Source: a virus. From it: a DNA stretch of 50,380 nucleotides. A program made the position numbers and the translations under genes. Of the stretch, positions 19,098 to 40,721 are shown piece by piece. The stretch is taken from positions 1-50,380 of IMG/VR virus record IMGVR_UViG_3300032213_002971. One strand, written 5' to 3'. Numbering within the stretch: the stretch's first letter is position 1; each line of letters starts with the position of its first letter. The notes under the pieces were generated by a model. It was not told the origin of the DNA and searched no databases. It saw only the letters and a list, made by a program, of their open reading frames with translations.

Positions 19098-19103
19098 GGC
19101 TAT

Positions 19104-19646: not shown

Positions 19647-19680
19647 TTTTATCTCCAATAGGTTTATTTGTGTACATGTA

Positions 19681-19709
19681 ATACTAGCCAGTAACCCCAC
19701 TGAAAGCAA
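19681..19709 (-). promoter_or_regulatory. Sigma-A promoter for the phosphatase operon
   Basis: On the minus strand TTGCTT (+ 19704-19709), 17-nt spacer, TAGTAT (+ 19681-19686). This leaves a leader of about 28 nt with a GGAG ribosome site before ATG 19646. Confidence 0.7.
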
Positions 19710-19736
19710 CCCCCTGAAAAGTATGAATAAATAGGG

Positions 19737-19765
19737 TTGATTAATGTGACCCCCCACGGTAGGTT
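19737..19765 (+). promoter_or_regulatory. Sigma-A promoter for the 19809 gene
   Basis: TTGATT (19737-19742), 17-nt spacer, TAGGTT (19760-19765), start near 19772. It is divergent from the phosphatase promoter, with about 28 nt between the two -35 boxes. The leader carries an AAGGAAGG ribosome site. Confidence 0.65.
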
Positions 19766-23829: not shown

Positions 23830-25143
23830 TTAGGCTTCTGGAAGTCCGTCAAACGTTACTTCCACGAATGCCTCTGGGCGCTTCACAGCAAGTGCGAGGC
23901 GTTGCTCGGCGAGAATCACGATCGCGTTGCGCACGAAGAAGTCTGCGTGCTGCTCGCTGATACGGATACTTGCCTGCTCACGGTCGTACAACTGTGCTGC
24001 GGTACCGAATGCGCCGACAAGTGCGGTGCCTTCTGCAATCGCAGGAGTGTCAACGACAGGAATGCGCCACAAGCGTGGTTCGCCACCAAGTGCCACGGAA
24101 ACAGCGACCAAGTACTGGCCGTTGCTGTCCTTGGACAACTCAATGTCTTCCCAATCGTTCGGGTGCATTACAACGCCGGTTGGCTCGTAGTACGCAAGGA
24201 ACGACAAGGTAGCTGCACGACGAATCGCGTCTGCCTTGAGGTCGCCAACAGCGCCTGCTGACCAGCTGTAGGTCTGAATGCCGCTTGTGTTCAAGATACC
24301 TGTGAGGTTCTCGCCAGTACCGTCGCCATTGAGGATCTGTGTGTCTTCCAAAAGGCGAAGACCGTACATCAACTCATTGTCAATGATCGCGCGTAGTTGT
24401 GGCTCATCGGCTAGAACGTTGCGGTGTGCTGCTTCCCAGTGGGCAAGGGTGCGTACTGGAGCCTGTTGGCCCGAGAACACCATGCTTGACTGTGGCTTGG
24501 CTGCAAATGCTGAACCTGAACGTTCTGCTACCGATGCTGCGTTATTGGTGCCACCGCCTGCGGTTGTGAAACCGAGCTGACGGAAGTATTCAATAACTGC
24601 TGCATTGGTTGTGCGGGTTGGGAACAAGTCACGAACACGCTTTGTGCGGGTTGGTGCAACGACCATTGGATCGCGTTGGATTGTTCCGAATGAACCAGGT
24701 GTTCCGCTTGGGAGTGCCGAGTAGACATCCTTTACGTTGTAACCGTGGGTCAATGAACCCTTGACCTGCCAAGGCGAAATCATGTTTGCGCCGTTCTTGC
24801 CACCCTGAAGTGACTTGAACTCTGCCGAATCGAGGAACGCTTCGCCAAGTGTCTTGGCTTCACGTGGTGAAAGTTCACGAGCAATCATTGCTGCTTCTGC
24901 AGCAACTGAGCTACGTGCTTCTTCCGAACCCCAGCTGGAAACTTGTTCCATCTGCTCGAGACCGTCAATGAGGCCCTTGATTTCACGGATATCTGACATG
25001 TTCTTGTCAAATGCCGTCTTTTGTTCAGTGGACACGACAACTGTGCCCTCTTCAACTTTGAATGAATCTGCGATGGTCTTGTTGTCTGCCATCTTGGCGC
25101 GGAGCGCGCTTTGCAACTCCGTAAGCCTGCTTGTGTCTGACAT
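23830..25143 (-). CDS. Major capsid protein (HK97 fold)
   Basis: 437 aa. The N-terminal ~110 residues are helical and charged (TSRLTELQSALRAKMADNK, then EQKTAFDKNMSDIREIKGL), the usual HK97 delta/scaffolding segment removed at maturation. The mature part shows family hallmarks: VRDLFPTRTTNAAVIEYFR, ERSGSAFAAKPQSSM, AHRNVLADEPQLRAIID, LLEDTQILNGDGTGENLTGI, GVVMHPNDWEDIELSKD, LWRIPVVDTPAI and the C-terminal VRNAIVILAEQRLALAVKRPEAFVE. It assembles the icosahedral head. Shine-Dalgarno AGGAG lies before the ATG. It is the last gene of the head operon, far from its protease. Confidence 0.95.
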   Translation of the reverse strand: MSDTSRLTELQSALRAKMADNKTIADSFKVEEGTVVVSTEQKTAFDKNMSDIREIKGLIDGLEQMEQVSSWGSEEARSSVAAEAAMIARELSPREAKTLGEAFLDSAEFKSLQGGKNGANMISPWQVKGSLTHGYNVKDVYSALPSGTPGSFGTIQRDPMVVAPTRTKRVRDLFPTRTTNAAVIEYFRQLGFTTAGGGTNNAASVAERSGSAFAAKPQSSMVFSGQQAPVRTLAHWEAAHRNVLADEPQLRAIIDNELMYGLRLLEDTQILNGDGTGENLTGILNTSGIQTYSWSAGAVGDLKADAIRRAATLSFLAYYEPTGVVMHPNDWEDIELSKDSNGQYLVAVSVALGGEPRLWRIPVVDTPAIAEGTALVGAFGTAAQLYDREQASIRISEQHADFFVRNAIVILAEQRLALAVKRPEAFVEVTFDGLPEA

Positions 25144-25294: not shown

Positions 25295-26929
25295 TTATTC
25301 TTCGCTTTTGATGCCTTGCGCATAGAAGCGTGTGGTTCGTACTGGCGCCCCATATTTGAGTCGGTACCCAACCTGTGATGTTTCAGAGTTGTATTCAGTC
25401 CCATTCACAGCAAACGACTTTGAATCACCATTCTTGCGCCAAGGGTGGTTATCAGGCAAAAGATCATTGTCAGTCCGATATTTGGTGTTCTCGGGTTTTC
25501 CAGTTCGCAATATTTTTAGGAACGAATTCACGCGTGCCAATGCCCATTGTTGCGGGCTAGCGGCACCCTTGTTGGGTGTGAACGAAGCCAGTCCACGCCG
25601 ATACACGGACTTCAGCGAGCGGAGATTGGTTTGTGACCAGTCCTTGCTCTTTGTGCGGTTCATTTCGGCATTATGTTGGCGAACCTTCATCGCCAAAGTG
25701 TTTATCACCTGCGAACTCATGTCTATCTCTTTGGTCTTGCCAGCTTTGGACTTTGTTCGGATAGCACCAGAAAGGGATCCGAAGTGCCCTGTGGCCGAGA
25801 TAAAAGATTTGCCTGGATTTGGGTACTGTGCAGCCTGTTGATTATGTAGATTCTGTGCATATATATCAGCGTCTCGTATGTTTGAAAATTTACCTAAATG
25901 CTGACCGCTTCTTTGGTAGTACTTAATGGCTTCTCGGTCGCTTACTATTACGCCACTCCCATTAGGTCTTTTGATTACTGTAGGGATGACAACAGCCGTA
26001 TTCCCTTCGGTGATTGTTATGGAACGAACCGTGCTGATAGACCCGTCGCGATTTTTTACAACAGGACGATTATTTAAATCTATATTGCCTTTGGTTACTT
26101 CACCCTTTGGTCGTTTCTCCTGTTTAGGTGAAACCCGTGTATCATCTACACCACCCGGTGTGGACGCAACATAGCCGTCACCGTCGCCATCAATTGGTTT
26201 ATTCCCACTACTGGCAACAGAACCACCAATTGGATCACCTAAAGTCTTTTCCTTAAATCCTGTTCCCTGTCGGCGAGGATTATTCCTAGGGCTGTTATCT
26301 CCTCGGATACCTGTGACACGGTTGTAGTCAGAAACATTGGAGCATGGAAGCCAAACAAGTTTTCCATCTCTGGCGGTGTAACGACGAATACCGATACAGC
26401 CGATGTTCCTTGCACGAATACGGGCAGAATCGGGGTCGCTGAAAGTATCAGGATCTGTAGACCTACTCACGCGGTTTACAAAGCCTTTCTTTTCTACCGA
26501 TTTTCCACTCACGGAAGCGGAAACTAGCCCACCACCTGGCAAAGTCTCTATGCCGGCAATCGGTTTCTCATCTAGATTCTGCCACCTCTGTTTTGGTTTG
26601 CGAGGAACAAAGAACAGACGACCATTTCGCCTAACGACCCGTAGACCCGTAAGCCCATCGTCTTTGCCAGCATCCAAAGCTTCTTGGCGCGACTCGTACA
26701 TTTGAGCGGAATTAGAATCAGACAAATAACTTCTTTTAGATACGGCTGTATCAATCATTTTCGTCAAGTTGCCGTAGTACGCCAATAAATCATTTTTGCC
26801 CTTAGACGCAGCAGAAAACTCCTCGGCTGACGCACAAGGCATCCAAGCCCCATTTGTATTCTGATGCACCCCAAAGCAACCAATTTGTTTTGCTACGGAA
26901 AGAGCTTGCGAGCGATCTGGCTCACTCAT
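25295..26929 (-). CDS. Putative virion protein with duplicated IGCxG...PC module
   Basis: 544 aa. Two copies of a Cys/Trp module occur: IGCFGVHQNTNGAWMPC (residues 16-32) and IGCIGIRRYTARDGKL, then VWLPC (about 175-197). Each is followed by an acidic/aromatic ending (AEEF, VSDY). A GDGDGYV loop near residue 250 could bind calcium. The rest is low-complexity linker and a basic C-terminal helix-rich part (MKVRQHNAEMNRTKSKDWS). Location between capsid and the giant proteins and large size suggest a capsid-associated protein. Similar Cys modules occur in actinophage structural proteins, but the function is unknown to me. Starts in an 8-nt overlap (ATGAGTGA) with the upstream gene. Confidence 0.65.
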   Translation of the reverse strand: MSEPDRSQALSVAKQIGCFGVHQNTNGAWMPCASAEEFSAASKGKNDLLAYYGNLTKMIDTAVSKRSYLSDSNSAQMYESRQEALDAGKDDGLTGLRVVRRNGRLFFVPRKPKQRWQNLDEKPIAGIETLPGGGLVSASVSGKSVEKKGFVNRVSRSTDPDTFSDPDSARIRARNIGCIGIRRYTARDGKLVWLPCSNVSDYNRVTGIRGDNSPRNNPRRQGTGFKEKTLGDPIGGSVASSGNKPIDGDGDGYVASTPGGVDDTRVSPKQEKRPKGEVTKGNIDLNNRPVVKNRDGSISTVRSITITEGNTAVVIPTVIKRPNGSGVIVSDREAIKYYQRSGQHLGKFSNIRDADIYAQNLHNQQAAQYPNPGKSFISATGHFGSLSGAIRTKSKAGKTKEIDMSSQVINTLAMKVRQHNAEMNRTKSKDWSQTNLRSLKSVYRRGLASFTPNKGAASPQQWALARVNSFLKILRTGKPENTKYRTDNDLLPDNHPWRKNGDSKSFAVNGTEYNSETSQVGYRLKYGAPVRTTRFYAQGIKSEE

Positions 26930-27221
26930 TGCTTGATGACCTTCTGACCCGTTTGTTTGTTGTCTTTATATCTTCGGTATTCTCGGCAGTTGGTATGCCG
27001 CTACCATCACCGAACAGTACAAAGTCGTTATAGGCTTTCTGAAATTCATCTTTGTTCTCATCTTTTGCGAAATACCAAAGAACCGATTCAAACACATCGG
27101 GCTTTGTCTTGTCGGCGGAGAGAGTGTATGCGAGATGTGCTAAACGGTTCCTGAAATCTGCATCCTCAATCTCGTAGTAGCGCATGAGAATGGTATTTTT
27201 GGTTTCTTCATTCAACGCCAT
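26922..27221 (-). CDS. Small acidic protein paired with the 1353-aa giant
   Basis: 99 aa, helical (YYEIEDADFRNRLAHLAYTL, then VFESVLWYFAKDENKDEFQK), with a polar basic tail. The ATG overlaps the TAA of the 1353-aa gene by one base (TAATG), so the pair is tightly coupled. It belongs to a set of about 90-100-aa proteins, each following a giant protein in this operon. It could be a chaperone, adaptor or immunity-like partner. No family recognised. Confidence 0.65.
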   Translation of the reverse strand: MALNEETKNTILMRYYEIEDADFRNRLAHLAYTLSADKTKPDVFESVLWYFAKDENKDEFQKAYNDFVLFGDGSGIPTAENTEDIKTTNKRVRRSSSNE

Positions 27222-30200
27222 TAGACGGCCTTTCTCGGAACTAGTGTTCGTGGGTCACGGGTAAGCATATTGCTCTCATCGTTGAATTTGTACTTTCCAG
27301 TTCCAAATCTGTAGAAGCTAGCCATCCACTTCGCTATCTGTGCTTCACGAGCACCTGCAGCAATACCACGCTGACCCTTATCTGATCTTACACGTTGACC
27401 CTCAAGCGCAAGAATGAAGTCAAGGTGACGAACGGACCTAGGGTTGGCTTCCGCCTTTCGGATCAGATAGGCAATCCGGTTGTACTGTTCTTGATCCTGT
27501 ACTAAACCGAAACCATACTTTTCAAATAATGTCAACTCTTTCTTGAATGACCTTATTGTTTCTGAAGGAATCGCGCTGTTGTCAACAAACCCAACACGAC
27601 CCCAAACATACGGGCCACTGTCCAAACCAGCGCTCACTCTGGCATGTGTCATACCAGCTTCACGCAAATACATGTAGGCGTGGTTGTTGTAGAGTGTTGC
27701 AAGTCCGTTCCCTTGGAAGGCAGGCTCCATTGACAGGTAGCCGTTAGTCACTTCCTTGGCGTCAAACGCGATGGTTCTTGATGAAGATCCCGCAGGACTA
27801 ATCAGGTTTCCATTCGCATCAATGTTTTCAATTTTCATACTTACACTGATAGACGTGGAATCCGCAGTGATTCTATCTACACGGAAACGGTAGAACTTTC
27901 CGTCGCGTCCAAGTATCTTTGGGTGACCATAAGCCTGTGTCGCCCACTCTATAAGTTGTTGCTTCGCACTATCGGCCTGTGGGCCGCGTGTTCTCATGTC
28001 AGCCCTGAGACTTGCTAAACGTTCTGGTGTCATCAACTTCCAAGGAGACTCTGTCTCCCCGTAGCGGGAAATCATATATTTGCCGAGATCGCCAACACGA
28101 TCTTTCATTACCGATTGAACCAATCCGTTCATAACAGTTTCTTGCTGGCGAGATATTTCGGGGATCATTGATGCTGATGGCGCAACAAAAGGATTCGCTT
28201 GCCTTTCCTGAAATGCGTCACGGGCACTCTTCCAGAACCTAAACTCATCTTGTGCAGCAAGCAAACTAGCGGCCTGAACCGTCCAGGCCTGACTAATCAC
28301 ACCATTCTCTGCTTCAAAATTTCGTCTTACCGAATCGTAGTAGTTCGCTGCGGCTTGAAGCCGTGCATCAATATCGCGACCCGCATCAACAGCACTAGGT
28401 GCATCGGCGAGGCGCAAAAAGTGGTTATTCATTGCTACAGCTTTTTGGCTTCTCTCAAATTTTGCCTTCGCCGCCAAGTCACCCTGTCTTGCTGCTGCAA
28501 CGCCCTGAGCACCTGTTCCGAGCCTGATAAGTTCGTTCATATCTTTTAGTTCAGCGAAAGACTGCGTATCAATAGAAGCAATATCTCGCACCACTGCAGG
28601 CATTGCTGTAGGTACGAACCCTTGCGCCGCTGGACGCGCAGGTGCAGGTGCGTTTACTCGTGGACGCAAACCAAGAGCAACCATTCGCTGTGATGCGAGC
28701 ATCTGCTTGTTCTTGGAAATATGGTAACGACGATAATCCTTCATTAGATCCGCAAATGCTCTTTCGGCTAGTTCAGCGTTGTTCTCCCGTTCGGCGCGAC
28801 GCAATTTTTCTTTAGCAACAATCATGTTGGCGACAGCAACCTGCATAGTTGCCGCTGCTTTGCGTTCCTCGCGACCTACCTGCCACCTGTCCATTCCACC
28901 GATTCGTGGTTCCTGATTTCTCTTACTTCTAGTGATCGCATTTTGTGCTGCTGTAATAACTCGCGAAGCGTTATCTATACGGAACCTAGTCGCGTTTGGT
29001 CCAGCGAACCTGTTGCGCAGCTGCGTGGCATCAAGATTGTCTACAGCAATTACGAAGTCGCGACCATCGGCGTGATGCCCAAATCGGGGGTTTCTTACTG
29101 CTGGTGCGACCTGAACGACTGCGGCAGCTGGTGGTGTTGGTATGACGGCATCGTCTGCCAAAGGTATATTCGGAACTGGTTCCGCATCAATTTCCTGAAG
29201 TCGTGACTGGAACATGTCGTGCTGTACTTTTAGCACTTCTCGCTCTGTGAATGCGCTGACAAGATTCCGGAGAACATTGTTGTCATCTGGTGACTGTTCA
29301 TAGGCGCGAACCATGGCCTGTAATGTGACATTTGCTCGGACTAAACGATCCTGTGCGAAAGTTAGATTTCCTGCAAGTTCGCCACGATTGGCTTGACTCC
29401 AGTTTGGTCGCGCGATATCTGCCTCGGCTCGTGCAGCATCTACGGCTACTTGCGCCAGTTGACCTGCGGATCTGGCATTCACTTCTGCATTAGGCCCACC
29501 AGCGCCTGCCAAGAAAGTAGATAAATTGAACTGTTCTATCGGTTGTTGCGGAAGCTGTTCAGGGGTTCGCAGCATGGCATTATCCGCCTGCTGTTCCCTT
29601 GCTTGCTGGACTACGCCGACTTGCGACCAAAGACCTCGTAACGCTTGGTTGTTTCGTAGAGTATCAAACATTCCTTGGTCAAGCACATAGTACTGTCCAT
29701 CCCCACGATCCTGACCGTTGCCACGCCACTCAACGTAATAGTAGGCACCACCATCGAGGCGTGAAAGCTGATTAGCTTTGTCGCTTGCAGAAGCACTATT
29801 TGAGTATGCGACGCCTGTGTGTTCAAAACGATCAGTTGGACCATCATTGTTTCGGCGTTGTGGAGCGTTGTTTATTTGGGGAAGCAATTCGTTCCAGTTG
29901 CGAGCAGTTATTGTGTCATACCTTGGATGTGAAGCCGTCAAACCAGTTGGAACACCGTTCGCATCCTCGTCCAGTGTTACGCGCCACTCGTCGCGACTCC
30001 AACGACCATTACCAGTAGTATTGAAATACGGCGGAACCTGACCGACGTCTACACCTTGTGGGCGTGGAGCGGGCTCTGGTTGCTGAACATTCTGTGCTTC
30101 GCGCGCCTGTTCAGACTCGCGATCCAGCATGTCGGCAATTTCGTTTCTGTTTCTAACTTCTTCTGATCGTGCGGCGTTGTCGCTTTGCCCTCGAGGGGCT

Positions 30201-31282
30201 ACACGGCGTGGTCGCCTCGGCGCTGGCGCAGCTGCGCGATCACGATTAAGTTTTTCGTTTACTAAACGACCACGACCATTAATGTTTCCATCAGCATCGT
30301 AGTAGCGTCCGAAACGGCGTTCCATTTCAATTCTTTGATCAGAATCCTCTGGAAGATCACGCCACTCGGCGCGGTCTGGAAGACCTTGTCGGGGGAAACG
30401 ATTTCTCACATTCCTGAAAGACCGCTCATCAGGTGCACTCTCACCTTCGGCGACCGCAGGTTGTGCTGGTGCGGGAATACGGTTTCTGTCTGTTGCACGT
30501 TGTTGCACTGCGGCTTGCCGGCGACGGCGTGGGCGGGGAGCAGCATTGGCTTCGGGTCGTTCTCGTGGAACATTTACTTGTTCAACATCTGGCGCTACAG
30601 CAGGTTGCTGTGTAGTGCGACGACGGTTTGGCTCAGGGGTGTTGACACGTGGTGGGATAACTTCCGTTGTGGCGGTATCTGAACGCCGACGATCGTTGCC
30701 ATCGCCGTCCAAACGGTCAGCAGCAGCACCAGCGGCACGTTCAATTATTCCCCTGCGGCGACGCTTTCCGCCTTGTCGTGACTCGTTGCCATCAAGGATT
30801 GCTGCGGCGCGCCCTGCAGCACGCTCAACCAGTCCTGGGCGTTCAATATTTGGCACAGTCGGGGTGTTCGGAACATTCGCTGGGGTTGAATCTCCACCAT
30901 CAAGAGCCTCGGCAATGCGACCAGCACCACGCTCAAGTAGACCACCATCGTTTAGTCTTCTTGCGACACGACGATTACGGCGCTCCAGACGTCGCTTGCG
31001 CTTGCGGTCATCAATGTTTTCTACACGTTCACCAAGATCGGTAAGAGTGTTGGCCAATCTTCGTGCCACACCCCAACCACAGCTTCGTCCAAATCGGTCA
31101 GTTATCTGACCACCGAATCGTGTACCAACTGGACAACGCCATCCACCGCGACGATTGGTTCCCGGCACCGACAAACTTGGATCCCAAATAGCGCGAACAC
31201 GCTTAACTTCGTATGCGATAGACGAAGAGTCTTTGCTAGAGACAAATGATTTGGCACGATATTCCGTGAGATTGTTATTCAT
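27221..31282 (-). CDS. Giant virion-associated protein with Cys module and GNAT-like C-terminus
   Basis: 1353 aa. Residues 28-75 contain KRVRAIWDPSLSVPG and the shared motif CPVGTRFGGQITDRFG (C50, then C68). Then come repeats of an ERxAGRxAxxLDG unit (about residues 115-205) and a long Arg/Pro/Ala-rich disordered region to ~480. A helical middle rich in Ala/Arg follows. The last ~200 residues have FQGNGLATLYNNHAYMYLRE then AGLDSGPYVWGRVGF, which looks like the acetyl-CoA-binding turn and following strand of a GNAT acyltransferase, although key residues are uncertain. Gene overlaps both neighbours (ATGAATAA, TAATG). Probably packaged in the head and perhaps injected. Confidence 0.65.
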   Translation of the reverse strand: MNNNLTEYRAKSFVSSKDSSSIAYEVKRVRAIWDPSLSVPGTNRRGGWRCPVGTRFGGQITDRFGRSCGWGVARRLANTLTDLGERVENIDDRKRKRRLERRNRRVARRLNDGGLLERGAGRIAEALDGGDSTPANVPNTPTVPNIERPGLVERAAGRAAAILDGNESRQGGKRRRRGIIERAAGAAADRLDGDGNDRRRSDTATTEVIPPRVNTPEPNRRRTTQQPAVAPDVEQVNVPRERPEANAAPRPRRRRQAAVQQRATDRNRIPAPAQPAVAEGESAPDERSFRNVRNRFPRQGLPDRAEWRDLPEDSDQRIEMERRFGRYYDADGNINGRGRLVNEKLNRDRAAAPAPRRPRRVAPRGQSDNAARSEEVRNRNEIADMLDRESEQAREAQNVQQPEPAPRPQGVDVGQVPPYFNTTGNGRWSRDEWRVTLDEDANGVPTGLTASHPRYDTITARNWNELLPQINNAPQRRNNDGPTDRFEHTGVAYSNSASASDKANQLSRLDGGAYYYVEWRGNGQDRGDGQYYVLDQGMFDTLRNNQALRGLWSQVGVVQQAREQQADNAMLRTPEQLPQQPIEQFNLSTFLAGAGGPNAEVNARSAGQLAQVAVDAARAEADIARPNWSQANRGELAGNLTFAQDRLVRANVTLQAMVRAYEQSPDDNNVLRNLVSAFTEREVLKVQHDMFQSRLQEIDAEPVPNIPLADDAVIPTPPAAAVVQVAPAVRNPRFGHHADGRDFVIAVDNLDATQLRNRFAGPNATRFRIDNASRVITAAQNAITRSKRNQEPRIGGMDRWQVGREERKAAATMQVAVANMIVAKEKLRRAERENNAELAERAFADLMKDYRRYHISKNKQMLASQRMVALGLRPRVNAPAPARPAAQGFVPTAMPAVVRDIASIDTQSFAELKDMNELIRLGTGAQGVAAARQGDLAAKAKFERSQKAVAMNNHFLRLADAPSAVDAGRDIDARLQAAANYYDSVRRNFEAENGVISQAWTVQAASLLAAQDEFRFWKSARDAFQERQANPFVAPSASMIPEISRQQETVMNGLVQSVMKDRVGDLGKYMISRYGETESPWKLMTPERLASLRADMRTRGPQADSAKQQLIEWATQAYGHPKILGRDGKFYRFRVDRITADSTSISVSMKIENIDANGNLISPAGSSSRTIAFDAKEVTNGYLSMEPAFQGNGLATLYNNHAYMYLREAGMTHARVSAGLDSGPYVWGRVGFVDNSAIPSETIRSFKKELTLFEKYGFGLVQDQEQYNRIAYLIRKAEANPRSVRHLDFILALEGQRVRSDKGQRGIAAGAREAQIAKWMASFYRFGTGKYKFNDESNMLTRDPRTLVPRKAV

Positions 31283-31565
31283 CTGCCGACCCCCCTGTGA
31301 GTACCCGCTTCGCTGCTTCTAAATTGTCGGTTGAGTATGAATCAAAGAAGTCCGAAGTCAGATTCATGGATGACTGCTCCCAGTATGTGGCTGGATCAAA
31401 GCTTGCGCCCATTTCCCGTCGTTTCTGGTTGTAGCCACTGTCAGGATTGTCTATGAAACCTTCAATGCTTCTAGCGATGTCACTATCGCCCAATACTTCC
31501 ACATTCTCGCCGTCGCAAGAGATGCCAACCTGATTTCCAAAATCAGCCCATATGTTTGCTTTCAT
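31275..31565 (-). CDS. Small acidic protein paired with the 1013-aa giant
   Basis: 96 aa. N-terminal strands (ANIWADFGNQVGISCDGENV) and an acidic helical C-terminus (DNLEAAKRVLTGGSADE). It lies 11 nt after the 1013-aa kinase-like gene and overlaps the start of the 1353-aa gene by 8 nt. It is one of the recurring small cistrons between giant genes. Function unknown. Confidence 0.65.
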   Translation of the reverse strand: MKANIWADFGNQVGISCDGENVEVLGDSDIARSIEGFIDNPDSGYNQKRREMGASFDPATYWEQSSMNLTSDFFDSYSTDNLEAAKRVLTGGSADE

Positions 31566-31576
31566 AAAATTCCGAT

Positions 31577-34500
31577 CTATGCAGTCGCGGCTTGTAATAT
31601 CTTTGTGAACAGCGCATCAGACTCGAGAACATCAACGCGAGCCCTAAGTTTTGCTATACGGGCAGCATGATCCGTAACACCGGTTACTGCACGACCAATG
31701 TTATCAATCTCTGGTGCAGATAACGCGCGACGAAGGTTTTCCGCAAGATCACGCATATCTTCACGAAGCTCTCGCTCAACGGCAGACTTTGCTTGTGCGA
31801 TAGTTCTTCCAGCAGATATGAGTTCCCTGTACTTTTTGTTGTAGCCTTTCCACGGCGCCACATCAAGAGAAGAAAATTCATTTCTAGCGTAATTGAAGAA
31901 CTGTAATGGTGTGTCGGTGGCTCGGACGAATGAACGACCGAAATCTATTGCCAATGCCCCATCATCTTTGAAGTGCATCCCGTTTGATCCGTGCCGGTCA
32001 ATTGCACCCATGAATGCGTTGAACAGATAGTGATTCAGTCTAGAACGAGCATCGGTTACAGCATCAGCGTCGTATTGTTGCACAACTGTTGCTGAGAAGT
32101 TGGTTCCTAGTTCCAGAAGAACATGTTGCTCAAGTGCGGCAGGGTTGCGGGCATTAGGTATATCAATCAATCTGCCTTGGTTGGCAGCAAAACCAACCTC
32201 TGCGGCAAGGTAGACGCCGAGCATTTCGGCATGTTGCCCTCGCTGTGCATAAGCTGTGTCCCAACCCTTGTAAATATACCCAGCTCCCGAAGGTTGGTCT
32301 GCATCAAGCCGAATATAGAAAGTTGGCGATGTTATGGATTGCCCCTTCTTGTACAGAAATTGTACGCCATCCATCCGAAGCTTTCTGACGAGTTCCTTTG
32401 CTTCTGGCGACAACTCTTTACCCAATCTTGCTGAAACTATTTGCGCCCGGAGGGTCTGTATGTTCCGTTTCTCGTTAACTGTAAGAGTGTTGAATGCGCG
32501 ACCAGGGTACACATATCCCGCAAGATCGGAATCCTTCTCGGTTCCTTTTGAACGATGTGTTAGAACATCTTTTATGAATTCGTCTGGCACATCACCCAAT
32601 GGGCCGTTGAATCTCTTGGCTTGTGCAAGCGTCTGGATCCCAGCATTACCGACGGGGACGCGACGTATCTTGTTCTCTGGCTGTAGTTTTCCAAGAACAT
32701 CGTCGTGTCTATCAAGCGGAACATTTATTGGGCGGCGAACATTAGGTGGGGTTAGGCTTGCAGGAGAATTGACGGATGGATCAGTGTCTGCTAATGCGTC
32801 TATTTCCGATGCAGACGAGAATGGGAATGTGTTTGGCTGACGATAACCGAACAAGCTTCCCCCATCAAAGCCACCAAAAGCGCGTTCACGTCGTGCCGCC
32901 TCATCTCGTCGCACAATATAAACATTGTTCTCATACATTATTGGCATGTATTCGTCACCCAGATTTAGTTCACCAATCTTGCGATCCGCAGCCACGAAAG
33001 CTTCTTCAAGCGGTGCCCGCCAAACAAGACGACCAGCATCGTTGTCAATTCCTTCGTCATTTATGCCAGATACCGAGAATTTACCTAGGTAACCAATCAT
33101 CTCGCCGTCAAGTACACCATCAAGATTTAGCACCCCTGCGGCGAGAGGTGAATCTTGCTGCGGTTGCGATGGGACTTGCGGTGTCGGCACTCTTGTTGCT
33201 ATACGGGGGACAGCAACAATCCCATTATTTCTGATAGCCTGCCACTTCTCGTTGTTATTATTCGCATTGCGAAGCACATCGGCTGTTTTCAGAATATGAA
33301 CTTTGCCATCAAATTCAACTATTGAATAACCACCAGGTGTGGCAGGAAGTGTCTGTATCTTTTGTTTTGCTTTAGTATCGGCGTCGGTGCGATTCCCGTT
33401 TTTGATTGGTATCGCACGTGTTCCAGTAGCACGGCGAAACGGTGCTCTTTGGGCAACAGGTCGTGCTGGCTGAACAGCATCAGGAACAGCGTCAGGTGTT
33501 GGTCGGCGTGTAGTGGTTCTTGTGGCACGGTTCGTAGATGTAGCACGCCGAGCTGATCGGCCACTTGGGGCGCGACGCCCAGCATTACGATCGTAAGCAT
33601 CACGAAGATTAGCTTCGTTGAAATTGCGCCATTCAGCTCTTGTGAGAATGCGTAATGGTTTGCCTTGCTCTATAAGTAGTCGTTGCCCTTGGGCATATTC
33701 GTTGTACTTGCGTTTAACATAATCGTCGTAACTTTCGTTTGCGACATTCGGTACAGGACGTGGACTCCTATTTGGGCGTGGCGCAACAGGCTGCACCTCT
33801 GGCGTTACAGTACTCATGTCGGGGGTTGAGCGCTCTGGTGTGACAGGTTCAGGAGATGGGGCAACAGGCTGTGCAGGGCGTTGCTGACGAGGTGCGCGTT
33901 GTGCTGCTCCAGGTCGCTTACCACCGCCACGACCTGCAGGGGCTTGTGGAGCCTGACGCTCATTGTTGTTACGAGGCTTGGGCATCCCATCTTCGCCCAT
34001 AAGCAATTGCCCGACCATCTGCATCCCAGCTTCTGTGAGCGGTCCGCGACGACGGCGTGCTCCGCCTTGACGGTCACCATCTAATCTCTCGGCAACACGA
34101 CCCGCAGCGCGCTCAACTATTCCACGGTCATCTCCGCCTTGATCTCCACCAAGACCATCGGCGATCCGTCCTGCCATACGCTCAACTGGTCCACCTTCGT
34201 TCAGACGTTGCGCCATTCGTGCGTTTCTACGAGCAACACGCTTTTTGCGGCGGTTGTCATCAATTCCTTCTACGCGCTCGCCAATATCCGAAACCGCATT
34301 GGCCAGTCGTCGGGCTACTCCCCAACCGCAGCTTCTGCCGAACCGGTCAGTTATTTGACCTCCATAACGAGTGCCTACTGGGCATCGCCATCCACCACGA
34401 CGATCCGTTCCAGGGATACTCAAAGAAGGATCCCATAACGCGCGAACACGCTTCACTTCATAACCGTACGATGATTTAGTTTGGTCAGATATAAATGCAG

Positions 34501-34618
34501 CAGCCTTATATTGAACTGTATTTACAAATTCGTAGCTCGCAACATCGTATAGCGGTATGTCTAGAAGCGAGACAACCGGAAGAGTAGTTTTTTCTGATAA
34601 GACTATTTTGTTTTTCAT
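31577..34618 (-). CDS. Giant virion-associated protein with Cys module and kinase-like domain
   Basis: 1013 aa. The N-terminal region 56-110 is almost identical to that of the 1353-aa protein (VKRVRALWDPSLSIPG, CPVGTRYGGQITDRFG; C79, C97) and is followed by the same ERxAGRxAxxLDG repeats. Residues ~210-400 are Arg/Pro/Gln-rich linker. The C-terminal third contains a PI3/4-kinase/HipA/Fam20-like core: FYIRLDADQPSGAGYIYKG, HAEMLGVYLAAEVGF, then FNAFMGAIDRHGSNGMHF (catalytic Asp about 874) and ALAIDFGRSF (metal-binding Asp about 893). These motifs suggest phosphotransfer to a protein or lipid. Substrate unknown. Confidence 0.7.
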   Translation of the reverse strand: MKNKIVLSEKTTLPVVSLLDIPLYDVASYEFVNTVQYKAAAFISDQTKSSYGYEVKRVRALWDPSLSIPGTDRRGGWRCPVGTRYGGQITDRFGRSCGWGVARRLANAVSDIGERVEGIDDNRRKKRVARRNARMAQRLNEGGPVERMAGRIADGLGGDQGGDDRGIVERAAGRVAERLDGDRQGGARRRRGPLTEAGMQMVGQLLMGEDGMPKPRNNNERQAPQAPAGRGGGKRPGAAQRAPRQQRPAQPVAPSPEPVTPERSTPDMSTVTPEVQPVAPRPNRSPRPVPNVANESYDDYVKRKYNEYAQGQRLLIEQGKPLRILTRAEWRNFNEANLRDAYDRNAGRRAPSGRSARRATSTNRATRTTTRRPTPDAVPDAVQPARPVAQRAPFRRATGTRAIPIKNGNRTDADTKAKQKIQTLPATPGGYSIVEFDGKVHILKTADVLRNANNNNEKWQAIRNNGIVAVPRIATRVPTPQVPSQPQQDSPLAAGVLNLDGVLDGEMIGYLGKFSVSGINDEGIDNDAGRLVWRAPLEEAFVAADRKIGELNLGDEYMPIMYENNVYIVRRDEAARRERAFGGFDGGSLFGYRQPNTFPFSSASEIDALADTDPSVNSPASLTPPNVRRPINVPLDRHDDVLGKLQPENKIRRVPVGNAGIQTLAQAKRFNGPLGDVPDEFIKDVLTHRSKGTEKDSDLAGYVYPGRAFNTLTVNEKRNIQTLRAQIVSARLGKELSPEAKELVRKLRMDGVQFLYKKGQSITSPTFYIRLDADQPSGAGYIYKGWDTAYAQRGQHAEMLGVYLAAEVGFAANQGRLIDIPNARNPAALEQHVLLELGTNFSATVVQQYDADAVTDARSRLNHYLFNAFMGAIDRHGSNGMHFKDDGALAIDFGRSFVRATDTPLQFFNYARNEFSSLDVAPWKGYNKKYRELISAGRTIAQAKSAVERELREDMRDLAENLRRALSAPEIDNIGRAVTGVTDHAARIAKLRARVDVLESDALFTKILQAATA

Positions 34619-34623
34619 AAATA

Positions 34624-36534
34624 TCAGGCAATCTTCACTAGTTCAAGGAATCGTTCTTTTAGCTTGGAAAGGTTCGCTAGACGACGGTCATAAAGGCGTC
34701 GCACAACATCTACGTGTGCGCGCTCGGCGCTTGACAAAATACCATCCGAGTTCAAGCGGGCAATGTATTTCGCCCAGTCAAAGCTTCTCGCCTTCCTGAG
34801 AAGGTCGTCCCACGAAACAGTGAGAAGTTGCCTTTCGCGATCACTCAGATTAGCAAAGGCTTTACCGTAATCGCGGTATGAAGAAAGCATTTCTTCTGGT
34901 AGGTCAATATTGAAGCGTCGCTCAATATCTTCCTTAGATAATCCAGCACCTGCAGATAACTCGTTGCCGGTTGGGAACGATATCCACTTACCATCACGAC
35001 TTTGGAAAAGTTCTTTGTCGCTTCTGTTCCGTTTGTCTAGAAGAACATCGGCAAAAAGAACGCCAAGATAGTCAATCGCTTTAGGTCGCGATGATGCGAT
35101 TTCATCCTCTTGTAGAACTTGTCGCATTCCAGCAGTCCCAACAAGTTTGCTTTGTGGCATTTTTACTCCAATATTCTTTGCCACATCGGAATAGATTTGT
35201 CGCGAAAGCGAACCATTCTCCACGGTTTGCGGAAGAAGCATGAAGGACTTTCCATCCACACGCTCAAGGAGCATTGCTCGCCCAACTCGTTTTCCTTTAT
35301 AGTTTTTGCTAGTTGTTATTGCGGCGACTATCTCGCCAGCAGGTAGCGTGAATGGATCTCTCAAGTCTGTGCTTTCCGTAGCAGTTGATTGTTTTGGTTT
35401 GCCCTTTTTGAAGAATGTTTCGTAAACCCAACGGGGTGCATCATGTTTGCGGCCATCTTTCCCGATGAAGGAAACGGTTTCTGTTGGGTTTTTTACTGTT
35501 GGAAAATCTTGTGTATATTCAAAAGCACCGTCAGTCTGTGTGGTGAACTCGCGCAGATTGCTACCGACATCGTAGTCGTCGCTTTGCCCAACAACATTAT
35601 TTAGCTGACGTCCGAACTTCCGTCTTTCACCAACCGTCAAATCACGAACACGCTTTACACCAATCTGTGTTCCATTTGGGGCAACAAATGAAACTTGCTG
35701 AATTCCAGCGCCAGCGAGCAATGCAAGATCATCGGACGATATGTCTTTGGGAACTTGCATCGCACGAACCATGACCCCATCTTCCATGTCTGGGTTGCCA
35801 CTAAATGTCCTAAGAACCGATGATGGAACAATCGGACGGAGTATCGTTCCGTCACGGCGGATCATGCGGCCCTCGCCTGCAGGTGCGCCTTTCAGTGCGG
35901 TTATTGATGTTCGCACGGAACTACCAAGAGACTGGGCGTTCAGTGTTCCGTTCTTCGGTATTTGCGCCATACGGCGTATCTGTGACAGTCTGTCAGGAGA
36001 TGTTCCGCCTTCTATGACATCCGACAAGTTCTCTACGCGTGCCGCAGTTGGAACATTGTTCACCCTGCGCAATGCTCGTATCGCTAAAGCAATCGGACTT
36101 GGAATATCAAACAACTGCGCGCCACAAGTTGAGAACTCATTATCGGTGAACCGTCCACCAAAAGCGAATCCAGCTGGACAGCGTGAAGCGCCTCGAGCGC
36201 CAGGGATGTTGGCACCAGGAATACGTGGTCCACCTGGTGTAATCATTGAGTACAGACGCGACCTAACAGGTGATCGTAATTTACTTATGTTGCCAGGTGT
36301 TACTGCGGATCCGATAGATTGCAGTGTCTGGCCAACTGGTCCACCTGCGTTTATTGTTCCAGCTTTCGTATAGACGCATGTTTCGTGCATCTTCAGGAAC
36401 ATTGCTGCTTTGAAATTTACTTTGTTTGCAGAGTCGTCAATCGTTGTATTGAACGCAACAGACCAACGCTGGTGGCCCATATCAGAAATACCGTATGTAG
36501 GCAATTCGTTGAGATCGGTTTCAGTATTGCGCAT
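34624..36534 (-). CDS. Giant virion-associated protein with Cys module and degenerate kinase-like domain
   Basis: 636 aa from ATG 36534, with AAGGG 6 nt upstream; an in-frame GTG at 36618 would overlap the previous gene and lacks a site. It has the shared motif CPAGFAFGGRFTDNEFSTCG about 115 residues in. The C-terminal half has the same order of elements as the kinase-like giants (RVGRAMLLERVDGKSFMLL, IYSDVAKNIGVKMPQSKLVG, AIDYLGVLFADVLLDKR). The catalytic DRHxxN is replaced by DKRNRSD and the IDFG box by SFPTGNE. It therefore looks like a pseudokinase paralogue, or one using different residues. Confidence 0.65.
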   Translation of the reverse strand: MRNTETDLNELPTYGISDMGHQRWSVAFNTTIDDSANKVNFKAAMFLKMHETCVYTKAGTINAGGPVGQTLQSIGSAVTPGNISKLRSPVRSRLYSMITPGGPRIPGANIPGARGASRCPAGFAFGGRFTDNEFSTCGAQLFDIPSPIALAIRALRRVNNVPTAARVENLSDVIEGGTSPDRLSQIRRMAQIPKNGTLNAQSLGSSVRTSITALKGAPAGEGRMIRRDGTILRPIVPSSVLRTFSGNPDMEDGVMVRAMQVPKDISSDDLALLAGAGIQQVSFVAPNGTQIGVKRVRDLTVGERRKFGRQLNNVVGQSDDYDVGSNLREFTTQTDGAFEYTQDFPTVKNPTETVSFIGKDGRKHDAPRWVYETFFKKGKPKQSTATESTDLRDPFTLPAGEIVAAITTSKNYKGKRVGRAMLLERVDGKSFMLLPQTVENGSLSRQIYSDVAKNIGVKMPQSKLVGTAGMRQVLQEDEIASSRPKAIDYLGVLFADVLLDKRNRSDKELFQSRDGKWISFPTGNELSAGAGLSKEDIERRFNIDLPEEMLSSYRDYGKAFANLSDRERQLLTVSWDDLLRKARSFDWAKYIARLNSDGILSSAERAHVDVVRRLYDRRLANLSKLKERFLELVKIA

Positions 36535-36575
36535 CCAAAGCCCTTCTTGGGTACTAGCGCCACTTTTAGTGAGAT

Positions 36576-36866
36576 TTACGAGATTGATAATTGCGAAAGC
36601 AAGGGTTCTGATCCCCACTGCGAAGCTACGCCACGCAATGTGACCATACTCTCGGGCGTCACTTGCCCGATAGTTACATTATAGTACGACATCCCGCTCG
36701 TGGCAGTTTCCAAGTCGGTAACTTTCCGCTCAAGGTAATCAAGGCGCTTTTGCTCGGCAACAACACGATCCTCTGCCAGCACAAGCAGCGGTCCTGCTGG
36801 CGGCTCAATAACGATAAACGGTTTACCTTTAATCCCGTTGCCTGGGGTGACTAGTGCGAATCGCAT
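36576..36866 (-). CDS. Small protein of the head operon, unknown function
   Basis: 96 aa from ATG 36866, which overlaps the preceding TAA (TAATG); an ATG at 36890 is in frame but overlaps more. N-terminal strands (KGKPFIVIEPPAGPLLVL), a coiled-coil helix (AEQKRLDYLERKVTDLETA) and a C-terminal strand region. It belongs to the series of roughly 90-100-aa proteins interleaved with giant genes. May be an adaptor or trimerising head protein. Confidence 0.65.
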   Translation of the reverse strand: MRFALVTPGNGIKGKPFIVIEPPAGPLLVLAEDRVVAEQKRLDYLERKVTDLETATSGMSYYNVTIGQVTPESMVTLRGVASQWGSEPLLSQLSIS

Positions 36867-37138
36867 TACTCCCCCATCCCTTTTCGCCATTCCGTAATTT
36901 TCATTTTATTGCGAGCCGACTTGCGCCATTCCAGCAAATTCGCATTGGTTAGAGCGTAGGGCTTGCTTTCTGGCTCATCGTTCATTATTCGTTGCCAGTC
37001 ATTTTGGGAAAGGTTCGTGGCATACACCGAATACCAATGCTCGCCACCCTGCCCATAAACCTGCAATATCCCGAAGTCATCATGGACACGTTCTCCACGG
37101 CTCGGGTCACTGTTGCCAACATTCAGTATTCCGGTCAT
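36866..37138 (-). CDS. Small protein paired with the 1107-aa giant
   Basis: 90 aa from ATG 37138, in a 4-nt ATGA overlap with the stop of the 1107-aa gene. An N-terminal Gly/Asp-rich part is followed by strands (FGILQVYGQGGEHWYSVYA) and a basic helical tail (LLEWRKSARNKMKITEWRK). No family known. Tight coupling suggests it binds or chaperones the 1107-aa protein. Confidence 0.65.
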   Translation of the reverse strand: MTGILNVGNSDPSRGERVHDDFGILQVYGQGGEHWYSVYATNLSQNDWQRIMNDEPESKPYALTNANLLEWRKSARNKMKITEWRKGMGE

Positions 37139-40100
37139 ACTACGTCCGTCAGATCCCACTCAAATTCTGGTGCTTGGTTCAATATGTTCATCATCTTAGC
37201 AAATGTCTTCCTTTGTGCTGGACTTAGTGCTTTCACAACGGTTGGCGTGTCCCCTTTCGGTGGAACGACCTTACTTAAAGCTTCACGAATTCTGTTTGTC
37301 TGAAACTCATCCAACGATTTGGCGCCAGGGTATGTGTCCAACAGAGAAAGCAACAATGTTGCTTCCGCAACCGCTTCCTTCGGCTCGGTGGATCCATAGG
37401 CCGAAGAAACACCAAGCGATTCCATCACTTCGTTATACGAAAGCCCGCCTGTCTGTTTGTAGCGATAATCCACGCCAACAGCATCACTCAGGGCGTCCTC
37501 AATTCCACGAAGCCCATCTTCCCAATCACCTTCAAATAACTGATCCAGTATCTCCTTGGCTTGTTGTCGTGTCTGTATGTTTTCAGGCAGGAGTCTCCCA
37601 GGTGCGCTCCCAGTTCTAGCAACTTTAATCAGATTTGCCAGATTGCTTTGACGCTGGCTATCTCCATCCGCTGATGTAGAGAAACCAAACAGGGTTGAAA
37701 CCCAGTTGGCGGGATCATCAATATCTTCAGGTTTGATCCCTGGTCCGTTTACGCGCAACGGGTCACTCCGCATTTGTATGTCAAGGTGCTTGGCTATTCC
37801 CGCGCGGTCTAGATCATCAAGGCTGTCTAGCGGCGTGTCTAACCGTATGTTGTTACGCAGTGCATACTCCGAACCCAGCAGGCTGTCTCCTATGTTGGGT
37901 CCTGCGACCTTGAGCTGATCGGCGACACTTCGTTGTGTGTCGTATTTGACCCCGTAGCGAGATGCCACAGCAGAAAAATGGGCGTTATGCCCGGTCTCAT
38001 GTATTGCTAAACCAACCTGATAGTTGTCGGTTCCATTAATCCGAACGGAGTTCTCAAACATTTCACCTGGTTTTAGCTCATCTATTTCAAGGTCATCATA
38101 AAGCAATGATGATCCTTTGTACCTTTGTACCGCATAGATTTTTCCGTCAGGGGTAACAGCGTTATATGTGTAAGCTGCAGATCTGTCGTTTGATCCAGTG
38201 TGAACCTTCCCGTCATGTATCTGAATGGCAATCGCACCACGAAGATTAGGGTTTGCTTCAGTCATCAAATCCACACCGTGCAGGGACTGCAAAAGTCCAG
38301 CAGACATTTTCGCTTTTAGGATCTTGCGACCATCTTCGGTTTCGGCAAGGGCTCTGCTTCGCTCAATCTCCTGGATCAGTACCTGCGCATACGCCTTTGA
38401 TGTGTCAGCTAGATTCTCGTCATCTAGACGACCCTTCAGCATTCGTATGTTTTGTTCTGAATCATCAAGGAACGTGGTTAGGGCCAAACCGACCATGTCT
38501 TTTGCGGATTGTTCCGTTTTCGGCATGCCCATAGCAACCATTAAATCTTCACCGATAACCTCAAAGTCCCTACTTGTGGCGGTCGGTAAATACTTCTTAA
38601 CCATTGCTTCAACACGGGCATCAAGTACGCCGTCAAATGTGTCTGGATCAAAAACTACTGGAACAAAAGATCCTTCGGATCGTGAACTAACATCAGGTGG
38701 AGCGAAATCCGTATCTCCTGCAAAATCACCAACATCAACCTTGTTGGGGACAACCCAGTCACCCGACTCTATGCGACCTCGTTGTGCCTCAATTATCTGC
38801 TCACGTGTGAGTTCGTCACCATCGCCAAGGGGATCTGTTATTCCATCCCAGTGTGGGTATTCTGGTTCTCGCCAAATGCCGTCAGTGTTAACCCAGTCTG
38901 TCTTGTCGCCAGGGCGACCAATGACTCCGACCGTTTCCGCGAACGCCGAGAGCGCGGAGCTCGGAGTGTCCTGCGCAGTTAGTGACGGTGGTTTGGCAAC
39001 AATTAGTTGCGCAGCATCATCAGGATCGGCATCAATAAACTCACGGATTCTCTGCATACTCAAAGAAATCTGATCCTGAATTTGTGTGGGAATAGGATTC
39101 TGGTCGGCATCCATTTCTATTCCAAATGCCCGATTTGCGGTTCTTTGTAAATCACTGTTTCCGCCGCTGTTCTCGTTCGTCACGGAACCACTTATCATTG
39201 CGCGTAACCGGGTTGCTAATGCTTCGGTGTCTATCTCTTGTAGCTCTGCTTGCAGCTTTGCTACCGCATCAACCACATCGTTATAGTTATCTGGGTTGTC
39301 TAATGTTTTTGTCGCCAATATTCGCCCAGGTGCTTGACGGATTATGAATCGCGATCCATTCTCCCAACTCTCGCCATCGGCATGATAGAACGCCGAACCG
39401 TTGTCAATGGGAACAGCCATATGTTCACCACCAGCATCGGTAAGCAGATAGTTCCCACTATGGCGATCAACGTTGCCGATTATTGAATCAAATACGGAAA
39501 TCGTCACAAGACCCTTGGTTGATATGTTTTTCACCTGATAAAGACCTGGGTCATATGCGGAAATGAAAGATTCACCCCAGCGGTTGTGGGCCAGTTCGGT
39601 AACTAAAGCGTGCCCACCAGAAGTGTTTTTCACCAATCTCATAGCCGATGACGGATAGCCGAATTCTTCCATTATTGCGCCAGCTACAACCTCTTTTATC
39701 GGATCTGTTCCAGTTCGGAAAGAATCAAACTCAGGCATGTATCCATCACGCATCTGGGCGTAATCTAGTTTTGGGGCTCCAGTTTCGTTGTACAGGCGAA
39801 CCGACTGAAACTTGACTCCAAGATCGGCGTTGGTTTTGTTGTCTTTGATGCGGATCATTCCATTGACCCCACCACCAGTTCCTAGAACTGTAAATCGCCC
39901 GTTGAGGTTGTCGTCGCGCTTCAAGTTTTGGAAAATTGATTGAATCAAATGCTCATCGGGGACGCTACTGAGATCCCCACCATCACGAACAAACTCAATG
40001 GCTTTATCATTGTCAAGACTCGTGTCAGCCGTTGGAAGATTGAAAGGTATGTTTCTGCCGTTCGCATCTGCAACACCTAGTTTGGCTATCGGCTGATTGT

Positions 40101-40458
40101 CGCGTCGGGTGGAAAGTGTGGGACGGCCCAAGCGGAATCCGTCGGAAGCTTTCTGCATCAAACGTTCAGCCATTTCGGCGATCGTTGCTGCACTTGGAGT
40201 CATGCAGTTTGACATGTTTATGTCGGTGAACTGGTTTGCGTTAGGCGTCCCAGGGGGGCAACGCATTTTGCCTAGTTCGTCAACAATTACGCCCGCTGCT
40301 CGAGCCGCGCGCATACCTGTGGTTGCAATGCCACGTTCACGTATTGTATTTCCTAGAAACCCTTTATAGAGCAGAATGTTGTCGTGTACGACACTTAGCG
40401 CTTTGTGTTGCCGTTCAATCCGTTCATTCGCCTCAAAGGCAAGCCGTGATGTTGCCAT
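37135..40458 (-). CDS. Giant virion-associated protein: Cys module, kinase-like domain and HExxH metalloprotease motif
   Basis: 1107 aa. Variant Cys module CPPGTPNANQFTDINMSNC (C67, C85). Residues ~185-360 form a PI3/4K/HipA-like kinase core: VLGTGGGVNGMIRI (glycine-rich), LGVKFQ (Lys216), VVAGAIMEEFGYP, FDSIIGNVDRHSGNYLLT (331-336) and AVPIDNGSAF (Asp352). Residues ~735-840 contain VGLAIHETGHNAHFSA with the zinc motif HETGH (820-824). EAVAEATLLL near 1028 may supply a third ligand, as in phage minor-head zincins. A protein that can both phosphorylate and cleave would be unusual. I infer that it is packaged and acts in maturation or in the host after entry. Upstream gene gap 17 nt. Confidence 0.72.
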   Translation of the reverse strand: MATSRLAFEANERIERQHKALSVVHDNILLYKGFLGNTIRERGIATTGMRAARAAGVIVDELGKMRCPPGTPNANQFTDINMSNCMTPSAATIAEMAERLMQKASDGFRLGRPTLSTRRDNQPIAKLGVADANGRNIPFNLPTADTSLDNDKAIEFVRDGGDLSSVPDEHLIQSIFQNLKRDDNLNGRFTVLGTGGGVNGMIRIKDNKTNADLGVKFQSVRLYNETGAPKLDYAQMRDGYMPEFDSFRTGTDPIKEVVAGAIMEEFGYPSSAMRLVKNTSGGHALVTELAHNRWGESFISAYDPGLYQVKNISTKGLVTISVFDSIIGNVDRHSGNYLLTDAGGEHMAVPIDNGSAFYHADGESWENGSRFIIRQAPGRILATKTLDNPDNYNDVVDAVAKLQAELQEIDTEALATRLRAMISGSVTNENSGGNSDLQRTANRAFGIEMDADQNPIPTQIQDQISLSMQRIREFIDADPDDAAQLIVAKPPSLTAQDTPSSALSAFAETVGVIGRPGDKTDWVNTDGIWREPEYPHWDGITDPLGDGDELTREQIIEAQRGRIESGDWVVPNKVDVGDFAGDTDFAPPDVSSRSEGSFVPVVFDPDTFDGVLDARVEAMVKKYLPTATSRDFEVIGEDLMVAMGMPKTEQSAKDMVGLALTTFLDDSEQNIRMLKGRLDDENLADTSKAYAQVLIQEIERSRALAETEDGRKILKAKMSAGLLQSLHGVDLMTEANPNLRGAIAIQIHDGKVHTGSNDRSAAYTYNAVTPDGKIYAVQRYKGSSLLYDDLEIDELKPGEMFENSVRINGTDNYQVGLAIHETGHNAHFSAVASRYGVKYDTQRSVADQLKVAGPNIGDSLLGSEYALRNNIRLDTPLDSLDDLDRAGIAKHLDIQMRSDPLRVNGPGIKPEDIDDPANWVSTLFGFSTSADGDSQRQSNLANLIKVARTGSAPGRLLPENIQTRQQAKEILDQLFEGDWEDGLRGIEDALSDAVGVDYRYKQTGGLSYNEVMESLGVSSAYGSTEPKEAVAEATLLLSLLDTYPGAKSLDEFQTNRIREALSKVVPPKGDTPTVVKALSPAQRKTFAKMMNILNQAPEFEWDLTDVV

Positions 40459-40475: not shown

Positions 40476-40721
40476 TCAGGCTGGTTCTTCAGTTGATTGA
40501 GCTTCTTCGGCGACACCATCGGCATCAACTAAAGTTTCACTCTTTTTGCGCGAACGCTTTTTAGGTGTTTCTTCCACAATAGCAGCATCAGTCTCTTCAA
40601 CAGGATCGGCGACTACTACCACATCGGCAACAGTCTCCTCAACGATTGGTGCTGGAGTAGCAACGACAACTTCGGCTGGCTTACTAGGTATACCACTTGG
40701 TGGTTGGTTTATTTTTCGCAT
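40476..40721 (-). CDS. Small low-complexity acidic protein
   Basis: 81 aa dominated by Val/Ala/Glu/Pro (AEVVVATPAPIVEETVADVV), with a short basic patch KKRSRKK. It resembles a disordered scaffold-type linker. It starts in a one-base overlap with the 530-aa gene stop. Probably disordered, and its role in assembly is unknown. Confidence 0.6.
   Translation of the reverse strand: MRKINQPPSGIPSKPAEVVVATPAPIVEETVADVVVVADPVEETDAAIVEETPKKRSRKKSETLVDADGVAEEAQSTEEPA

Follow-up and report, generated by a model that had tools for sequence, protein, structure and literature searches.

The IMG/VR virus record IMGVR_UViG_3300032213_002971, 50,380 bases long and analysed over its full length (hereafter the window), holds between its prohead protease and major capsid protein (MCP) genes a block of about 17 kb that encodes four large proteins, of 1107, 664, 1013 and 1353 amino acids (aa), which share a short N-terminal module with two cysteines and differ in their C-terminal tails. 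We consider it likely that this block serves a virulent tailed phage as an effector cassette of the polyvalent-protein kind, whose products would be loaded into the prohead via their short N-terminal modules and injected with the DNA. This reading builds on the following established features: the module, its exclusive location, the modularity of the tails, the kinase fold and the polyvalent domains in the same slot of related viruses. The consistent presence, across a large group of uncultivated phages, of giant, enzyme-bearing proteins with a short Cys tag among capsid genes suggests that they are loaded into the virion and injected for host takeover.

A two-cysteine module confined to the head operon

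All four proteins contain the pattern C-P-x-G-x6-[FI]-T-D-x5-C (CPxG-TD-C) with identical spacing, the second Cys lying exactly 18 residues after the first; the module starts at residue 67 of the 1107 aa protein, 147 of the 664 aa protein, 79 of the 1013 aa protein and 50 of the 1353 aa protein. An earlier note, made from the DNA sequence by itself, had described an N-terminal Cys motif common to four proteins, and the motif proved more regular than that description. The protease–capsid gap, put there at about 17 kb, measures 17.2 kb, with four open reading frames (ORFs) inside it as reported; of the lengths given (636–1353 aa), the smallest reads 664 aa from a GTG start, 636 aa presumably reflecting an internal start. 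A six-frame scan of the window found no module copies beyond the four proteins, which are as follows (A, B and C are head types described below):

37135-40458, minus strand: C-type putative effector, 1107 aa; module, kinase and HExxH tail
40204-40260, minus strand: Cys module CPPGTPNANQFTDINMSNC of the 1107 aa protein
34624-36618, minus strand: B-type protein, 664 aa; module and pseudokinase
36124-36180, minus strand: Cys module CPAGFAFGGRFTDNEFSTC of the 664 aa protein
31577-34618, minus strand: A-type putative effector, 1013 aa; module, Pro/Arg-rich linker and kinase
34328-34384, minus strand: Cys module CPVGTRYGGQITDRFGRSC of the 1013 aa protein
27221-31282, minus strand: A-type protein, 1353 aa; module, long linker and GNAT-like tail (unproven)
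31079-31135, minus strand: Cys module CPVGTRFGGQITDRFGRSC of the 1353 aa protein

Across IMG/VR, the in-frame DNA pattern for the FTD form of the module occurred in at least 119 stretches, and a frame-broken pattern one base longer, an unplanned control, in 4. The translated loci sort into three head types: A (GGQITDRFGRSC), B (GGRFTD...STCG) and C (NANQFTD or AANQFTD...C). Profile comparison unites these types over about 25–50 residues only (probability 94–98%), and part of this similarity is built in, since B and C members were mostly gathered with the pattern; such selection did not apply to the A type, whose ITD lies outside the scanned pattern, or to the four proteins of the window. No relation between head types was found when profiles of the module flanks were compared alone. 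The pattern misses members, as a divergent A-like copy in locus L146 (CPDETVNGGQFTNRLGRGC) demonstrates. A common N-terminal fold is unproven, both structure models being of low confidence over the module, with a predicted local distance difference test (pLDDT) score below 50 in the model of an A-type relative with a 1353-type tail.

To locate the module, we used the 31 viral records in which both a portal and a capsid gene were found, reading record G040 as circular and counting portal or capsid genes that are truncated where a contig ends. All 72 module copies in these records lie between the portal and MCP genes, on the capsid strand, in a slot of 10.6–63 kb (median 26 kb). The chance of 72/72 under uniform placement is about 10^-36, a value inflated by related records, although the direction is not in doubt; the placement among head genes noticed in the window is thus invariant. 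Where a record has several copies, the head types follow the order C, B, A, A, as in the window, and the regions that we read through run protease, 530 aa-like protein, C, B, A(-A), DUF3721 protein, MCP.

Kinases and other exchangeable tails

The tails of the four window proteins comprise the following regions:

39169-40011, minus strand: PI3K/HipA-fold kinase domain of the 1107 aa protein, approximately residues 150-430 (Pfam PI3_PI4_kinase, 4.5e-6)
37162-38709, minus strand: HExxH tail of the 1107 aa protein, residues 584-1099 (tblastn E=8e-43 to locus L098)
34819-35331, minus strand: pseudokinase region of the 664 aa protein, approximately residues 430-600 (DRHxGN changed to DKRNRSD)
27248-28180, minus strand: GNAT-like tail of the 1353 aa protein, residues 1035-1345 (unproven)

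The kinase of the 1107 aa protein has the catalytic loop DRHSGN (39451-39468) followed by PIDN, and that of the 1013 aa protein has DRHGSN (31982-31999) followed by IDFG. Taking fold, DRHxGN loop and metal-binding Asp as the marks of a kinase, both proteins qualify by sequence, in agreement with the earlier note, and the 1107 aa protein also by fold: all 50 of the 50 PDB fold matches listed for its model are kinases, with PI4KIIalpha and H. pylori CtkA first and HipT also present (best E 1.3e-3, probability up to 1.00, from a model of low overall confidence). A PDB sequence search with this protein gave weak matches only, the best to a xylosylkinase (E=0.29). The DRHxGN loop and the following Asp are kept in many A and C proteins. 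The tail of the 664 aa protein, previously read as a degenerate kinase, is supported as such by the profile of B tails, which matched the A and C kinases with an hhalign probability of 98.4% (E=7e-15); a kinase hidden Markov model built on a few strict seeds did not match ordinary B tails, and the broader profile–profile test did. Kinase tails occur under A, B and C heads alike (E to 5e-22).

The predicted HExxH motif of the 1107 aa protein is present as HETGH at residues 820-824 (37987-38001), and in L098 the same type of tail follows the same head, with no kinase detected. None of the four window proteins gave a Pfam MPTase match, the likeness consisting of the HExxH motif only. The GNAT-like nature of the 1353 aa protein's tail was not confirmed. 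This tail has no Pfam or PDB sequence match, and the best Foldseek match of an A-type relative carrying it was a tandem GNAT at E=0.4. It contains a conserved GNGLATLYNNH...YVWGRVGF motif and a strand–helix order compatible with GNAT; an acetyltransferase activity, read from this one motif and that order, is unproven. The same type of tail is common to A-type proteins of L002, L004 and L126 and to a B-headed giant of L056 (tblastn about 35% identity, E down to 1e-44).

Among pairs of C-type proteins with heads at least 40% identical, 113 of 197 had tails without a BLAST match to each other, as did 23 of 120 such A-type pairs, and unrelated tails are carried even by heads 60–84% identical. The logic of a shared head with diverse tails, proposed from four proteins, therefore holds over many related viruses: tails swap, and the kinase tail recurs under every head type. 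Other C-type giants contain RNase_T, and the one in L009 combines RNase_T with an ADP-ribosyltransferase (ART) exoenzyme domain.

Giants, neighbouring genes and distribution

The slot of related viruses also holds much larger proteins. In L137:2073-16280 (record G018), one ORF of 4736 aa combines prohead protease S78, sigma70 region 4, KTSC, UvrD, RNase_T, ArdC-N (7.9e-24) and MPTase-PolyVal (2.4e-44). The protease ORF of another relative, 3750 aa long, has DUF6321 and sigma70 region 4, and protease ORFs of 3610–4307 aa are found in L139, L140 and L150. Upstream of the capsid gene in L147 (5275-17019), a 3915 aa giant with NUDIX, sigma70 region 4, DnaJ and zeta toxin is headed by a weakly matching DUF3721 module (E=0.005), and a DUF3721-like module also heads a 5275 aa ORF in L143 (4075-19899) that is open at the end of the stretch. 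The effector nature suggested for the window proteins is strengthened by this company of RNase_T, ART, ArdC-N/MPTase-PolyVal, zeta-toxin and NUDIX domains.

Polyvalent proteins combine at least two disparate activities in one polypeptide. This is the case for the 1107 aa protein (kinase and HExxH) and for the giants of L009 and L137, the last with the characteristic polyvalent domains MPTase-PolyVal and ArdC-N; the 664, 1013 and 1353 aa proteins have one recognisable domain each. Judged by domain content, we class the slot as a whole as holding polyvalent proteins in the sense of PMC5512222, because giants with MPTase-PolyVal, ArdC-N, zeta toxin, NUDIX and UvrD sit there in relatives, and we class the four window proteins as smaller, module-tagged members.

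The DUF3721-like module, with the pattern CxG[AIV][HR]...W[ML]PC, lies near the N terminus of other slot proteins and may be a second tag. The 544 aa protein of the window has it at residues 18-32 (26834-26878) and 178-196 (26342-26398). In the protease ORF of the window, a separate motif, CWPGYQQFGMKKGKNGDMVPNC, sits behind the catalytic domain and is again of the form C-x-x-G-[YF]...C, as in L141 and L146. Another short motif, ARDADxDxLVxEG, recurs near the start of further slot proteins in L141, L142, L143 and L148; in some it contains an EF-hand-like DxDxDG, and the 544 aa protein of the window has DGDGDG.

On the minus strand of the window, the head genes run in the order portal-MuF, prohead protease, 530 aa, 1107 aa, 664 aa, 1013 aa, 1353 aa, 544 aa and HK97-type capsid. 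The genes around the four proteins are:

47377-48693, opposite strand to the head genes: terminase
44930-47131, minus strand: portal with C-terminal MuF domain, 733 aa (Pfam Phage_portal 1.5e-50, Phage_Mu_F 4.8e-8; PHROG portal)
42372-44837, minus strand: prohead protease (S78) with DUF6321 (Pfam S78 E=4.5e-12)
44211-44276, minus strand: separate Cys motif CWPGYQQFGMKKGKNGDMVPNC of the prohead protease ORF
40721-42313, minus strand: 530 aa Cys-rich acidic protein with PepSY-like region (Pfam PepSY E=0.013)
25295-26929, minus strand: 544 aa protein with two DUF3721-like Cys modules, DGDGDG motif and DUF5824 (Pfam DUF3721 5e-12, DUF5824 1.9e-6)
23830-25143, minus strand: HK97-fold MCP (Pfam Phage_capsid 1.1e-44)

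The 530 aa gene is conserved between the protease and the C-type protein, with tblastn matches in 76 loci. A search of the window for RNA families and tRNA found none. Visual inspection suggests that 13062-17972 holds a tandem array of three DNA N-methyltransferase-like ORFs, together with a Dcm-like cytosine methyltransferase of 578 aa in which a long insert separates the motifs, and that a histone-deacetylase-like ORF lies beside a dual-specificity-phosphatase-like ORF at 18219-19757; this last pair could possibly provide counter-enzymes to an acetyltransferase and kinases. The closest cultured portals to that of the window belong to actinophages (Gordonia phage GMA6, 41.5% identity over about half of the protein), so the host is likely actinobacterial.

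Cassette proteins themselves are nearly confined to uncultivated viruses. Searched by tblastn against 50,697 phage records, the 1107, 1013 and 664 aa proteins and one A, B and C relative each gave no match, and the type-B module alone gave only a chance match to cultured phages, in a DnaE gene (E=3). The earlier note had pointed to actinophage genomes as a place to find the module with variable C termini; cultured phages gave no credible match, and the variable tails were found in the uncultivated relatives. A protein-seeded scan of IMG/VR reached three loci with the 1107 aa protein and nothing with the 1013 aa protein. In a genome collection covering 84,980 species, the sole match was a contig of a metagenome-assembled genome (MAG), labelled Phycisphaerae, which is probably a virus contig.

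A similar organisation is seen in cultured actinophages. In FlyingTortilla and the Gordonia phages GMA6 and ChisanaKitsune, the portal gene is followed by ART and large genes, Stormageddon has an ART just beyond the capsid gene, and Jeon and the Mycobacterium phage Megabear encode between portal and capsid a 1.67-kaa protein (gp7) that is annotated in sister phages as a capsid maturation protease/MuF-like fusion. A short module, VR[DT]xxxYWGxPVGTPI (VRDAxYWGxPVGTPI), recurs on the ART, giant and MuF-fusion proteins of such phages (L130, which is GMA6, and L132-L136), making them a tractable laboratory counterpart. Homology of this module to CPxG-TD-C was unsupported (hhalign probability below 1%), and a regular-expression search for it in the viral loci collected by then found none. 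In Streptomyces phage Gilgamesh, the 4624 aa hypothetical protein gp48 (L129:17679-31553) follows a portal-MuF fusion and has at its start WNPALHPRDSKGRF, possibly another head tag.

Proposed function, alternatives and known systems

To judge from gene order, the cassette proteins would be made late, together with the head proteins. The N-terminal Cys module (CPxG-TD-C, or the DUF3721 type on the neighbouring protein) would dock each protein to the prohead interior or the portal and so lead to its enclosure, and after attachment the protein would be ejected along with the DNA. The C-terminal enzyme could then modify host targets or block host defence at the start of infection. Candidate enzymes are, in the window, a HipA/PI3K-like kinase, a pseudokinase partner, an HExxH domain and a possible acetyltransferase, and in relatives an RNase T-like exonuclease, an ADP-ribosyltransferase, an ArdC-MPTase and a zeta toxin. 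We propose more tentatively, and with somewhat less than even confidence, that the CPxG-TD-C and DUF3721-type modules form a portable capsid-loading tag, that is, exchangeable two-Cys addresses with which a large clade of uncultivated phages would fill its heads with swappable enzymes, some of them fused to the prohead protease.

Several points weigh against the reading as a prohead-loaded effector cassette. The module lacks a confident predicted fold and its flanks are unrelated between head types, so that we infer docking only from location and sharing. Many members hold the module 50–300 residues in, not at the extreme N terminus. The catalytic residues of B-type proteins are degenerate, and for several tails no enzyme family was detected.

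Exclusive location in the head operon would also suit proteins of head assembly (internal core, scaffold or minor capsid) whose enzyme-like domains survive as structural relics or, during assembly, act on capsid proteins alone. The B-type protein, very common and with a degenerate kinase, fits such a role, as do the large stretches of an A-type protein that are helical or disordered in its model. However, many A and C proteins retain the DRHxGN...D catalytic residues, the slot also holds ART, RNase_T, zeta toxin, UvrD and ArdC/MPTase, and tails are swapped between otherwise close relatives, which makes an obligate structural part unlikely; we regard this explanation as improbable overall. We give still less weight to late cytoplasmic enzymes that stay unpackaged, act on the host late and are tethered by the Cys module to one another or to the assembly site. 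Location suggests the time of expression rather than the destination, but relatives encode the prohead protease and effector domains of the same kind as a single polypeptide, which would place the effectors in the prohead, and known polyvalent proteins are predicted or shown to be virion-borne (PMC5512222).

A Trojan-horse role against eukaryotic grazers, as proposed for the VIP2-related ARTs of 24 freshwater phages (PMC6802176), would accommodate the ART domain of one C-type giant here. Yet most cassette domains (ArdC-N, sigma70 region 4, UvrD, RNase_T, HipA-like kinase) fit bacteria rather than eukaryotes and the head-gene location is invariant, so that we hold grazers to be very unlikely targets. 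Our findings suggest that the ART genes of freshwater phages, until now interpreted as toxins against grazers, can belong to an arsenal that is loaded into heads and directed at bacteria. Under the preferred reading of a prohead-loaded cassette, the module provides a searchable signature for probable virion-borne effectors, mostly unannotated proteins, in environmental phages without a close cultured relative. If it is a loading tag, it predicts which uncharacterised tails are enzymes injected to take over the host or to counter its defence. Such a tag would be defined by its sequence and unrelated to that of T4; transferred to other cargo, it could serve to bring chosen proteins into phage heads.

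Polyvalent, virion-borne effectors are an already known kind. As far as the open-licence literature shows, the CPxG-TD-C module, its confinement to the head operon and the occurrence of several proteins per phage with tail exchange are new, as is a group nearly absent from cultured phages and bacterial genomes; in that literature we found neither a description of CPxG-TD-C nor the term DUF3721. For polyvalent proteins, whose genes accompany those of virion components, injection has been predicted (Iyer et al. 2017, PMC5512222). Like the proteins described here, they are large and multidomain, lie among virion genes and have MPTase, ArdC-N, ART, kinase, GNAT and RNase-type domains. In contrast, the load is here also spread over three to five separate proteins sharing a short Cys module, the cassette proteins and type-B module have no credible cultured-phage match, and the kinases are HipA/PI3K-like, whereas those of PMC5512222 belong to a reduced Ser/Thr/Tyr kinase group.

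The MuF polymorphic toxins of temperate phages (PMC5576092, PMC3482391) likewise join a constant, head-related part to variable C-terminal enzymes, and the window portal has a MuF domain; however, Pfam places MuF on the portal ORF only and on none of the four proteins. No immunity genes were seen beside the cassette proteins, no systematic search having been made, and the single MAG contig among the bacterial genomes searched gives no sign of a temperate, prophage-encoded system.

T4 Alt and the T4 internal proteins have a capsid targeting sequence. In P1, the prohead protease cuts an N-terminal piece of about 75-90 aa from DarA, an internal head protein (PMC12810830), and about 44% of surveyed phage ARTs are in contexts suggestive of head packaging (PMC9503650). 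With the T4 proteins and P1 DarA/Hdf, the cassette proteins would share enclosure in the prohead as enzymes or anti-defence proteins and an N-terminal piece for targeting or protease removal, but no sequence relation was seen, and the module here is a two-Cys motif. The cultured actinophages (GMA6, ChisanaKitsune, FlyingTortilla, Stormageddon and Megabear) resemble the window in having ART, HNH or giant genes in the head region and a short recurring module; since VRDAxYWGxPVGTPI is not detectably homologous to CPxG-TD-C, this likeness is one of organisation only.

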